Source: Anaerolineales bacterium | Lineage (GTDB): Bacteria; Chloroflexota; Anaerolineae; Anaerolineales; Villigracilaceae | DNA: 37,267 nt | Direction: 5' to 3' | Assembly (NCBI GenBank): GCA_014379595.1 | Contig: JACMLM010000045.1 | Span: 1-37,267 of the forward strand | Translations under genes and position numbers: made by a program | In this document: positions 30,133 through 37,031 of the stretch, in pieces | Layout of the letters: every line of letters begins with the position of its first letter | Position numbering within the stretch: the stretch's first letter is position 1 | Notes under the pieces: generated by a model | The model's database searches: none | The model's input: the letters and a program-made list of their open reading frames with translations, nothing else | What the model was told of the DNA's origin: nothing

Positions 30133-30522
30133 TTAGAACATTTTTGTCTGCTGGATGTTCTCTTCACCACTTGAACCACTCCAGCCAAATTTCTTTAAGT
30201 CAATTTTATCTTTCACAAACACAACGCCTTCATCCTCCAACAATAGACGTTGTCTCTCAGCTCCGCCGGGTCTTTCACTGATCTTGCCTTGCGAGTTGAT
30301 CACACGCTGCCAGGGGACGTCATCGGGACAATTCGCCATCGCGCCTCCCACCCAACGCGGAGCAAAGGCTGTATAAGCTTCAATCTCCACACCATTAGGT
30401 GGAGGAATCATTTTACCAATTTGCCCATAAGTGGCGACGTGACCGTAGGGAATCTGGCGCACGAGGGTCCAAACTTGTTCATAGTATGTCTGCTGGTTGG
30501 GCGGCGAGGAATAAGATGGCAT
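30133..30522 (-). CDS. Alkyltransferase-like protein (ATL), copy 2, 129 aa
   Basis: The C-terminal DNA-binding domain of O6-methylguanine methyltransferases: YYEQVWTLVRQIPYGHVATYGQIGKMI with the helix-turn-helix, then the active-site motif. The acceptor Cys of PCHRV is replaced by Trp in VPWQRVINSQGKI, so it cannot dealkylate DNA. It should bind alkylated guanine and flag it for nucleotide excision repair, as ATL1/eAtl proteins do. It is about half identical to the next gene upstream (30526-30885), 3 bp away. The C-terminal extension GSSGEENIQQTKMF is extra. Confidence 0.88.
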   Translation of the reverse strand: MPSYSSPPNQQTYYEQVWTLVRQIPYGHVATYGQIGKMIPPPNGVEIEAYTAFAPRWVGGAMANCPDDVPWQRVINSQGKISERPGGAERQRLLLEDEGVVFVKDKIDLKKFGWSGSSGEENIQQTKMF

Positions 30523-30525
30523 TGG

Positions 30526-30885
30526 CTATTTTCCATTCCATCCATATTTTTTCATATCAATTCGGCCCCTGTTATTAAATTCTATGCCTTCATCTTCCAA
30601 TAAAAGTTGATGTCTCCTGGCCTGTGCGCCATCTCGTTCTGTGATTTCACCTTTTGAATTAACCACTCTTTGCCAGGGCACTTCATTGGGGCTATTTTCT
30701 ACTGCATTGCTTACCCACAGTGCACCATATTCGAGATATGTTTCAGAGTCTATGCCAGCAGGTGAATTAATCATTTTTGAGATTTGACCGTAAGAAGCAA
30801 CTTTTCCGCGTGGAATCATGCAAACAATATTCCAGACTTCGGCGTAAAATGCTGGTGGGTTCGGTAGAGATGGAGGTTGAGCCAT
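30526..30885 (-). CDS. Alkyltransferase-like protein (ATL), copy 1, 119 aa
   Basis: The same domain as its neighbour: FYAEVWNIVCMIPRGKVASYGQISKMI, NEVPWQRVVNSKGEITERDGAQ and LLLEDEGIEF. The acceptor Cys is again Trp (PWQRV), the usual choice in ATLs. AAGGA lies 7 bases before the ATG. It follows the 510-aa membrane-protein gene by 14 bp. Tandem ATL genes suggest a duplication; differences in the GIDSETYLEYG loop may change lesion preference. Confidence 0.88.
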   Translation of the reverse strand: MAQPPSLPNPPAFYAEVWNIVCMIPRGKVASYGQISKMINSPAGIDSETYLEYGALWVSNAVENSPNEVPWQRVVNSKGEITERDGAQARRHQLLLEDEGIEFNNRGRIDMKKYGWNGK

Positions 30886-35207: not shown

Positions 35208-35489
35208 CTAAACAAACTCTCCGCCTTTTACTTCCTGTTCGATCAATTCACGATTGTATGTGAATTTGAAATCGACTTCCATGCGCTGAAAACATTTATT
35301 GTCACCCATTAACACTTTGCGCCCAATATACACGTCGCGGCCTGATTCGTATTCGACGCTTAAGTCATTGTCCAGATCCACGCGACCCTCAATTACTTCT
35401 CCACAGCGTTTGCATTTGACAGAGAAGGTGTAATATCGTTTTTCAGGTTTGGAAGAAGCTCCGCCAAAGAATCTTTTAAAAAAGCTCAT
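35208..35489 (-). CDS. Small zinc-ribbon-like protein, 93 aa
   Basis: MSFFKRFFGG, then YTFSVKCKRCGEVIEGRVDL (a C-x-x-C-G knuckle at about 25-28) and, further on, GDNKCFQRMEV as a possible third Cys. No fourth cysteine is evident, so metal binding is incomplete or made between two chains. The Shine-Dalgarno GGAGG is strong. It is adjacent to the ASCH gene. A TATAAT is present in the A+T-rich upstream region (about 35540-35546). Function unknown. Confidence 0.7.
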   Translation of the reverse strand: MSFFKRFFGGASSKPEKRYYTFSVKCKRCGEVIEGRVDLDNDLSVEYESGRDVYIGRKVLMGDNKCFQRMEVDFKFTYNRELIEQEVKGGEFV

Positions 35490-35560: not shown

Positions 35561-35595
35561 AAATAAAACAGGGACATAGCAGCGCTGTGTCCCTG
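35561..35595 (-). terminator. Rho-independent terminator of the UGA-interrupted gene
   Basis: CAGGGACATAGC and GCTGTGTCCCTG pair along 12 bp with one G-U, loop AGC, followed on the minus strand by TTTTATTT. It begins 19 bases after the second stop (35615-35617), consistent with the longer reading frame. Confidence 0.8.
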
Positions 35596-35614: not shown

Positions 35615-35776
35615 TTATGGCAATACCAATAAGAAAAAGGTTAAGGCAAGAGAAACCAGGAATGCTTTTCCAAGTATCTTCATAGCTTGCAATCTGACTT
35701 GTTTTAATTCGCTTTGATCTTCTATCTTTTCCACTTCATCGGTTAATTGACGTGAACCACGTCCAGCGAGAGATAC
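35615..35776 (-). other. In-frame continuation after a UGA (53 codons)
   Basis: Directly after the UGA at 35777-35779, in the same frame, comes VSLAGRGSRQLTDEVEKIED, then QSELKQVRLQAMKILGKAFL and a hydrophobic end VSLALTFFLLVLP with stop TAA at 35615-35617. The second hydrophobic span would complete a two-span protein. Related bacterial small membrane proteins, as I recall, have a Cys at the UGA position (KTCV-LA-RG). Read together, 35615-36049 encodes 144 codons including the UGA. Confidence 0.7.
35749..35763 (-). promoter_or_regulatory. Hairpin 14 nt after the in-frame UGA (possible SECIS-like element)
   Basis: GACGTG-GTT-CACGTC on the minus strand is a perfect 6-bp stem beginning 14 nt after the UGA, with a loop starting G-U at nt 20-22. 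Bacterial SECIS elements also sit just after the UGA, with a G/U-containing loop at about this distance. The bulged U of E. coli elements is not present and the loop is small, so the resemblance may be chance. Confidence 0.3.
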
Positions 35777-36049
35777 TCAGGTTTTGTCTCGCCATTGAAA
35801 GTAACTTGCGGCAGCAGCTCCAAATGGAAGAATTAATGTGAGTCGCCAAACTTTGTCAGCGCCTGTGATGAGGAGAATAGCCAAAATAATCAGAGCTATC
35901 ACAAATTGGATGATGGCGAAATTTAAGCGCTTGCGCCTCTCTGCAAGACTGATGTTGGCAATACATACTTCATAATTGCCATCCTCTTCTTCCGGGGAAA
36001 AAGAATCAGATTTGGTATTTGAAAACGGAATATTTAATCCTGAAAGCAT
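35777..36049 (-). CDS. Small membrane protein truncated by in-frame UGA, 90 aa
   Basis: MLSGLNIPFSNTKSDSFSPE, then CIANISLAERRKRLNFAII and a hydrophobic span (about 47-65), then GADKVWRLTLILPFGAAAAS and YFQWRDKT before UGA. I recall a family of uncharacterised Chloroflexota/Deinococcus membrane proteins with C-x3-S-x2-E-R-x-R, G-x6-R-L and a Cys after KT; the UGA falls on that Cys. The ATG at 36049 is chosen: AAGGA lies 7 bases upstream, whereas the longer frame to 36103 is merely the 36066-36098 hairpin read as protein. Function unknown. Confidence 0.7.
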   Translation of the reverse strand: MLSGLNIPFSNTKSDSFSPEEEDGNYEVCIANISLAERRKRLNFAIIQFVIALIILAILLITGADKVWRLTLILPFGAAAASYFQWRDKT

Positions 36050-36065
36050 GAATGAATCCTTTAAA

Positions 36066-36098
36066 AGACCTCCGAGTTCTTTTAGAACTCGGAGGTCT
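36066..36098 (-). terminator. Perfect 15-bp inverted repeat, likely terminator after the VOC gene
   Basis: AGACCTCCGAGTTCT (36066-36080) and AGAACTCGGAGGTCT (36084-36098) around a TTT loop, followed on the minus strand by TTTTAAA. It differs from 9420-9468 by a compensated G-C to C-G swap in the stem. Confidence 0.75.
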
Positions 36099-36110
36099 CT
36101 CATATTATAA

Positions 36111-37031
36111 CTAACTTATCTTACGTAGTATCACACCATTCTGTGACGGGTCAACCATCAGAAGCCCATCTTCTGTTTGATTGGATGCAATTCCCGCATT
36201 ATTGACTCGCGCAACTACTTCGTCCAATGCTTCCTGATTCGCAAAGTCAATTGTGAAGTGACGCAGGCCCACTGAATCCGCGGGTGGAGGCGGCGCACCT
36301 TCACCCTGCCAGGCGTTAAGCCCGAGGTGATGATGATATCCACCCGCGGAAATAAACGCGGCCTGGAAAGTACTGGACATGCCCATCACGTCAAAACCGA
36401 TGATGCCGTGATAAAAATCCACAGCTTCCTGCACATTCCGCACATGCAAATGGACGTGTCCCACTCGTGTTTCGGGCGGGATGGAAACATCCAAACGATC
36501 ATCTTCCTTGAGATGCTTGAACAACGCATCCACATCCAACGGCTCACGGCCGCTGCTTAATGTGCCATCTGTACGGCGTGTAACGAAATCATTTTTCTCA
36601 ATGATGAACGTCCCATCTTCAGGTGACTCGGCGTATAACTCAATGCCATTGCCTTCAGGATCATCCAAATATGTGGTCTTCGTCATGATATGGTCAGTTG
36701 GGTGGTTGCGATATTTCAACTCAAACAAACGCGCCACTGCAATAGCCAGCTGACGTCTATCCGGAAACAATACGGCAAAGTGATATAAGCCAGTCGCGCC
36801 GCGATATTTCTTTAAGTTAGGTTCTTCGGTCAGGCGTAACAAGTCTGTGCCGCCTGCGCCGAGTCCAGCTTTATTTCCTTCACGCCAATGGAGTTGAAAG
36901 CCAAGTACCTTTTGATAGAATTCGATCTGATTCTCCAGGCTGGCAACTGTCAACGAGACAAGGCCCATCATCGTGGCGGGATGAATCGAAAATTCAGTTT
37001 TATTCGCAGTTTGTGTTTGCATTGGTTTCAT
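36111..37031 (-). CDS. VOC-family extradiol dioxygenase (CatE-like), 306 aa
   Basis: Two glyoxalase/VOC modules, at residues about 15-140 and 165-305. Module 2 carries the metal site: RVGHVHLHVRNVQEAVDFY (His), AGGYHHHLGLNAWQGEGAPP (His) and a C-terminal acidic end. Module 1 begins MMGLVSLTVASLENQIEFYQKVLGF; the His commonly found before S/H-L-T-V is Leu here, so it is probably structural. GLYHFAVLFP and YLDDPEGNGIELYAES match catechol-2,3-dioxygenase CatE. Substrate is unproven. It is preceded 85 bp upstream by an LLM oxidoreductase gene, and both could act on the same small molecule. Confidence 0.85.
   Translation of the reverse strand: MKPMQTQTANKTEFSIHPATMMGLVSLTVASLENQIEFYQKVLGFQLHWREGNKAGLGAGGTDLLRLTEEPNLKKYRGATGLYHFAVLFPDRRQLAIAVARLFELKYRNHPTDHIMTKTTYLDDPEGNGIELYAESPEDGTFIIEKNDFVTRRTDGTLSSGREPLDVDALFKHLKEDDRLDVSIPPETRVGHVHLHVRNVQEAVDFYHGIIGFDVMGMSSTFQAAFISAGGYHHHLGLNAWQGEGAPPPPADSVGLRHFTIDFANQEALDEVVARVNNAGIASNQTEDGLLMVDPSQNGVILRKIS

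Follow-up and report, generated by a model that had tools for sequence, protein, structure and literature searches.

A candidate family of small membrane selenoproteins in Chloroflexota and, apparently, Gemmatimonadota

Bacterial selenoproteins whose selenocysteine (Sec) is decoded through a bacterial selenocysteine insertion sequence (bSECIS), such as SelD and FdhA, combine an in-frame UGA, a hairpin just downstream with a G at the start of its loop, and the presence of SelA, SelB, selC and SelD in the genome. The same combination is found for a gene on the minus strand of contig JACMLM010000045.1 (assembly GCA_014379595.1) of an Anaerolineales bacterium, of which the whole stretch of 37,267 nucleotides was analysed and is called here the window. 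In distinction to the described bSECIS-decoded proteins, its product belongs to an uncatalogued small membrane family with three helices, in which the candidate Sec stands in the motif K-T-U-V and neither CxxU nor UxxC is present. Comparison with related genomes makes it very probable that this frame (36049-35618) encodes a small membrane selenoprotein in which the UGA is read as Sec.

The 2026 review of prokaryotic selenoproteins lists 119 families and subfamilies in its Table 1 (PMC13188914), none of which resembles this membrane protein, in line with the suggestion of the original prediction, made on this DNA from the sequence alone, that such a family would be new. Nine new selenoprotein families were added by deep-Sep (PMC12013277), none of them matching by name, and selenocysteine in Anaerolineales is spoken of in formate dehydrogenases (PMC4959059). 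Among the proteins tabulated none passes a curated cut-off of NCBIfam (June 2026) or of Pfam, the Pfam comparison covering the forms other than those of Gemmatimonadota. The best E values of the 24 other members of the family alignment described below (A1) were 8.1e-4 in Pfam and 2.2e-4 in NCBIfam, none of these matches being to a selenoprotein family. This test of the catalogue's models covers NCBIfam and Pfam, with the models of PANTHER and CDD and two families without a model outside it. The best E value of the window protein against PHROG and Protein Data Bank (PDB) sequences was 0.2, the plasmids searched held no match to the family, and in Rfam nothing reached the gathering score in the window, the five weak matches being all far below it. 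No published account of the family was found in a literature search that left preprints and most subscription journals outside. A relation to PF11127 (YgaP-like transmembrane, DUF2892) was hinted at by weak Pfam matches and by a shared short stretch N-x-x-x-x-(D/E)R-x-x-R before the first helix. It is not supported by profile comparison (probability 0.7%, E 0.084, with ten PF11127 members), and the match of locus L088 scores 15.0 against a cut-off of 25.3 bits. We rate the candidate selenoprotein family as new.

The elements of the gene are the following.

35618-36049, minus strand: putative selenoprotein coding sequence of 144 codons with the UGA read as Sec, based on the frame, homologs and alignment; stop TAA at 35617-35615.
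35777-35779, minus strand: in-frame UGA, residue 91 (candidate Sec), with UGA in 47 distinct homologous genes and Cys in others.
35749-35763, minus strand: SECIS-like hairpin GACGTG-GTT-CACGTC, based on conservation, covariation and a similar hairpin in the genome's own selD.
35561-35595, minus strand: terminator-like hairpin and T run, 19 nt past the TAA.

The frame opens with an ATG at 36049, and the TGA at 35779-35777 is its single interruption. As originally described, 90 sense codons, the last two K-T, precede the TGA and 53 more follow it up to the TAA. The perfect stem with the GTT loop, starting with the 14th nucleotide after the TGA, was likewise found at 35763-35749, and the predicted terminator corresponds to a strong hairpin at 35595-35569 followed by TTTTATTT; an automated hairpin scan allowing loops of 3-8 did not report the latter hairpin. 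UGA is an ordinary stop elsewhere in the window, as had also been claimed, the 25 open reading frames of at least 200 aa ending in TAA (16), TAG (5) or TGA (4).

When 150 genomes of the same family were searched, 31 matches turned up in 28 of them. At all 27 places (26 genomes) where a match spans the site the TGA follows directly on K-T and the frame stays open beyond it; the four matches not spanning the site are L034, L036, L038 and one unnumbered piece of G116. Alignment A1 has 25 rows and consists of the spanning loci minus L016, identical to L015, and L035, whose upstream part lies in another frame. The hairpin counts below, on 32 and 47 sequences, do include L035, and alignment A3 omits L066 and also L050, which nearly duplicates L051. 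A pattern-based scan of named genomes gave 21 loci, 20 in Chloroflexi/Anaerolineae assemblies and one in Gemmatimonadaceae. Overall the genes with UGA number 47 distinct ones, from Chloroflexota and apparently Gemmatimonadota. Three genomes of the family search show peculiarities of their own. In G116 the gene (L035/L066) is split over two frames with a TAG in its first part and is broken upstream of the site, probably because the copy has decayed or was misassembled; in G122 the loci L034 and L038 are gene ends on different contigs, with the contig ends near the site of UGA and hairpin; and G145 carries two diverged copies (L018 and L037), both with UGA.

Invariant residues of A1 are found on both sides of the UGA and include Q85, D88-K89-T90, U91-V92, R97, R100, E107, Q121-A122, K128 and P144. 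In the 53 downstream codons of the 25 genes no stop was found among 1325 codons. Averaged over 300 pairs, pN/pS is 0.48 behind the UGA and 0.36 before it, with silent sites near saturation, and comparison of the downstream part with L010, the closest relative of the window gene (72% identical), gives dN 0.15 and dS 1.30. Judging from these alignments, the part behind the UGA evolves as coding sequence under purifying selection. Against this background has to be seen the simple alternative of a nonsense mutation or a sequencing error, already named in the original prediction, or of a pseudogene, with the downstream frame as a remnant. It would take a single base change from TGC or TGT to TGA, and the G116 gene does look damaged; with the same UGA in 47 distinct genes, an open and selected downstream frame and the silent covariation of the stem reported below, it is hardly credible.

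In a search of the class 25 of 396 genomes matched, six of the window's genus and six of other families having the UGA and 13 of family f7 having Cys; Cys is also found in L058 (Anaerolineales) and L065 (Gemmatimonadaceae). At the level of the phylum 38 of 400 genomes matched, and the 20 loci examined comprise two with UGA (family f65) and 18 with Cys, one of the Cys loci (G220) being already in the class count and eight of the 38 matches standing outside this reading. The Gemmatimonadaceae locus lies in genome G522, and a search of the class of that genome gave matches in 17 of 246. The 15 loci examined comprise 13 with UGA and two with Cys, one of the latter in L065's own genome; two weaker matches, G1094 (extra TAA) and G972, were left out. 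We infer that the genomes of this class belong to Gemmatimonadota.

The cysteine expected by the original prediction in place of the UGA is thus what diverged homologs have. All homologs examined carry either UGA or Cys at the site, none has TGG and none ends naturally there; TGC or TGT occurs only in diverged homologs and not in near strains, the nearest being L058 (55% identical). This occupancy bears on a further possibility, namely that the UGA is read through without selenium, by a near-cognate tRNA or as programmed readthrough, or acts as a switch between a 90-residue form made at low selenium and a 144-residue form made when selenium is available. Some termination at the Sec-UGA is usual in selenoprotein genes, the 90-residue form would retain the first two helices, and the invariant downstream residues indicate that the long form matters. 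Readthrough of this kind is nevertheless very improbable, the homologs without UGA having Cys and not Trp, and both the hairpin and the Sec machinery fitting Sec.

Three changes between Sec and Cys are needed on a tree of 73 rows, and four on a tree of 79 rows including the Gemmatimonadota forms, both trees having few columns, deep forks that are not resolved and only a midpoint root. The Cys form L058 sits among UGA forms beside L073 (support 94/91 in the smaller and 80/89 in the larger tree), and in its genome the tRNA-Sec search finds at best a tRNA-Ser and the SelB search gives nothing over the cut-off. A Cys form among UGA forms, in a genome with neither tRNA-Sec nor SelB detected, would fit a loss of Sec decoding and a Sec-to-Cys change in this lineage. 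In three f7 genomes (L164, L167, L171) a related-looking gene lies beside the Cys form, its product starting with (M/L/V)NWLAH(L/I)FLS.

The genome of the window has the genes needed for Sec, namely selC, selB, selA and also selD: the tRNA-Sec scores 64.6 bits with anticodon tca (UCA), SelB 342, SelA 550 and SelD 345 bits. Neither selA nor selB was found beside selC in the 19.5 kb examined. The selD gene (L105 1501-2433) itself has one in-frame TGA followed by the hairpin GACGCAG-GTT-CTGCGTC, whose loop starts 33 nt after the UGA and which shares with the candidate hairpin the GTT loop and the outer letters GACG/CGTC. Among UGA-form genomes, tested in the family search and the class and thus outside f65 and Gemmatimonadota, tRNA-Sec or SelB passes the cut-off in 32 of 32 (26 of the family and six of other families). 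Within the family tRNA-Sec is present in 23 of 26, and the other three (G112, G125, G001) have SelB over the cut-off; in the other families tRNA-Sec reaches at least 66 bits in G394, G195, G481 and G357, and SelB is found in G441, G419 and G357. As to the Cys-form genomes, tRNA-Sec of at least 71 bits was detected in ten of the 15 tested, and the remaining five (G521, G152, G220, G299, G429) have a tRNA-Ser as their best match and lack a SelB over the cut-off.

The bSECIS model describes a stem of 4-16 bp and a loop of 3-9 nt with a G in its first two positions, the loop lying 16-37 nt after the UGA and the minimum free energy being at or below -7.5 (PMC13188914). The window gene lies within all these constraints, with 6 bp, the loop GTT starting 19 nt after the UGA and -7.9 kcal/mol over 40 nt, and conservation of the hairpin extends to its relatives. 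In 32 distinct UGA sequences the five pairs 15-27, 16-26, 17-25, 18-24 and 19-23 (counted after the UGA) are formed in 96.9% of 160 cells, and 25 cells show a change on each side. None of 500 shuffles matched the paired share, the double-change count or the covariation score. As control, synonymous codons were shuffled between sequences, since codons 6 and 9 are conserved Arg; relatedness is ignored in this procedure. The pair 18-24, silent on both sides, is Watson-Crick in 30 of 32 sequences versus 15.5 expected, and 27 sequences versus an expected 20.0 have the five pairs complete, in both cases with none of 20000 codon shuffles as high. The silent covariation of the stem thus appears to exceed what codon choice explains. 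When f65 and Gemmatimonadota are added, the four pairs 15-27 to 18-24 are kept in 45 of the 47 UGA genes and all five in 38, and the loop starts with G in all 47 and with GT in 40.

A number of observations weigh against reading the UGA as Sec, or at least against the force of single lines of evidence for it. The hairpin taken alone is weak evidence: of the 1573 TGA triplets of the window (both strands), 97 are followed by a hairpin of at least five pairs, and 36 by one of at least six, with the right distance and a G in the first two loop positions. Two of the five shuffle measures are unremarkable, the observed value being reached in 217 of 500 shuffles for pairs that carry a double change and in 352 of 500 for further pair types. 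A tree-corrected test at 18-24 had four independent contrasts, three for and none opposed (p 0.25), which are too few events. Only 12 of the 32 sequences form the outer pair 13-29 and only 7 the outer pair 14-28, five of the 32 UGA regions fold above -7.5 kcal/mol over 50 nt (27 reach it), and in some of them the best fold is not the named stem. Cys forms also pair at 16-26, 17-25 and 18-24 (12 of 14) and at 19-23 (13 of 14), partly because of the Arg codons and high G+C, and differ from the UGA forms mainly at pair 15-27, formed in four of 14 Cys forms, and in the loop. Five UGA-form genomes are without a true tRNA-Sec match (that of G441 is a tRNA-Leu, and G419 has none), and one, G394, is without SelB over the cut-off; tRNA-Sec is moreover common throughout the family, 130 of its 150 genomes having it. 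As statistics the distribution of the Sec machinery is supportive and not strong, because of this commonness and because four of the five Cys genomes without machinery are of one family (f7). What carries the case beyond chance is the comparative evidence, that is the TGA at the same site in relatives, the Cys in other homologs and the covariation of the stem.

The UGA at 35779-35777, in the reading as a selenoprotein which we consider very probable, would be decoded as selenocysteine by SelB and tRNA-Sec under the direction of the hairpin at 35763-35749, and translation would end at the TAA to give a small integral membrane protein of 144 residues. Sec insertion itself is deduced from the genomic comparison.

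Structure prediction with AlphaFold2 (20 rows) gave a mean pLDDT of 81.7 and a pTM of 0.69, residues 1-27 being below pLDDT 50. The model has helices at 35-62 and 66-87, a short one at 92-97 directly after Sec91, a small strand and a helix at 112-142; by hydropathy there is a strong segment at about 42-64 and another at about 122-144, with helix 66-87 weaker. The corresponding features, the helices being based on AlphaFold2 and hydropathy and Cys29 on alignments, are:

35963-35965, minus strand: Cys29 codon, the residue standing three positions ahead of the conserved N-I-S/G motif.
35864-35947, minus strand: helix 35-62, holding the strongest predicted transmembrane segment.
35789-35854, minus strand: helix 66-87, a probable second transmembrane helix, less hydrophobic, with Sec just after it.
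35624-35716, minus strand: C-terminal helix 112-142 with a hydrophobic end (about 122-144).

The R-R-K-R stretch before helix 1 hints weakly at a cytosolic N-terminus and Sec; the inference is a weak one because the flanks are without net positive charge (five K/R and seven D/E in residues 1-43, eight K/R and seven D/E in 86-126). No clear structural relative emerged from fold searches, one of which had a best Z of 7.1 with an rmsd of 3.6 over 81 residues, in the range of common helical arrangements.

Cys29 is present in all 64 Chloroflexota rows compared. An internal redox pair of Cys29 and Sec91 as general mechanism is weakened by the absence of this Cys in seven of 13 Gemmatimonadota UGA forms; because Cys29 is not universal, the selenol probably works on its own or together with an external partner. 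In the Sec column only Sec and Cys are found, and neither CxxU nor UxxC is formed around them; this could also suit a selenoprotein which handles a metal or metalloid in the membrane, with Sec as ligand and no oxidoreductase function. We consider this unlikely, as no metal-handling gene is present among the ten labelled neighbour representatives and as Cys29 is not universal.

The next gene upstream on the same strand is the following.

36111-37031, minus strand: VOC/glyoxalase-dioxygenase gene (PF00903), based on a Pfam match.

Of 21 loci compared, the window and 20 related ones, 14 have such a gene, which in L051 lies downstream and in the other 13 upstream on the same strand. Other recurring neighbours in the 21 loci are TetR (10), a LUD domain protein (10), DoxX_2 (8), DoxX (5), an F420-linked NADP oxidoreductase (5) and, downstream in 12, a SurE-like gene (SurE being our own reading); in L050, L051 and L054 there are also genes for a quinone reductase dependent on F420H2 and for a DSBA-like protein. 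The Pfam labels rest on one representative per cluster, and several of the loci are close relatives, mostly of genus g1, with L050 from g3. Bacillota have quinone and electrophile stress operons such as catDE and mhq, and part of the selenoprotein family resembles them in that genes for a VOC dioxygenase and DoxX lie close to a regulator of repressor type. It differs from them in the regulator, which is of TetR type (representative TetR_N), MhqR being of MarR type and no regulator of that type having been identified here, and in the added LUD, F420-linked genes and the membrane selenoprotein itself.

The palindromic hairpin at 36066-36098, between the VOC gene and the start of the selenoprotein gene, has resembling copies at 18 other places of the genome (40 of 57 candidates scored) and looks like a dispersed palindromic repeat. 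Downstream, 35208-35489 encodes a small CXXC protein with Pfam matches below cut-off only, found near the selenoprotein gene in eight of the 21 loci. Further away on the minus strand, 30133-30522 and 30526-30885 are adjacent related small genes, apparently a tandem duplication.

A role in quinone or electrophile stress is a lead and not a finding, because the neighbours are limited to part of the family and because the window, whose contig ends at 37267, shows only the VOC gene of the set. Several observations count against it or against a more precise function. L057 and L058, among the other f1 or class loci, share none of the neighbour clusters, and in the 17 loci outside g1 (several of them short) the stress set is absent save one TetR-like match of 29% identity, so that the gene context fails as a general clue outside genus g1 and one g3 genome. 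Cys29 is missing in both Gemmatimonadota Cys forms as well as in the seven UGA forms mentioned, and Foldseek gave no match at E 0.001 or better. The proximity of TetR, LUD, DoxX and VOC genes in part of the family might also indicate a redox sensor or regulator of the adjacent stress genes whose Sec is oxidised by the signal. The family occurs without these genes in other lineages and a TetR regulator is already present at such loci, which makes a sensor improbable.

As to function, our best guess is that the protein works at the membrane surface as an oxidoreductase, using its selenol on quinones, peroxides or similar compounds, as hinted by the stress-type neighbours in part of the family. 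In such an enzyme Sec would sit where the second transmembrane helix meets the cytosol, and its selenol would reduce or bind a membrane-soluble oxidant or electrophile such as a quinone or peroxide, with an outside reductant as partner rather than always an internal Cys; this arrangement is tentative and held with low confidence. The wider picture, of widespread, uncatalogued small membrane selenoenzymes of Chloroflexota and Gemmatimonadota which detoxify quinones or lipid-type peroxides through a lone surface selenol and switch repeatedly between Sec and Cys when the Sec machinery is lost from a lineage, is a possibility we regard as rather unlikely.

Standard gene calling stops at the UGA, as did the program listing the open reading frames of the window, so that members of the family have likely been cut in two or missed. 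The candidate adds to the bacterial selenoproteins a membrane family which appears to span two phyla. It would further provide a natural comparison of Sec and Cys, including an Anaerolineales Cys form from a genome with no SelB or tRNA-Sec detected, and makes the role of a lone selenol at the membrane surface a directly testable question.
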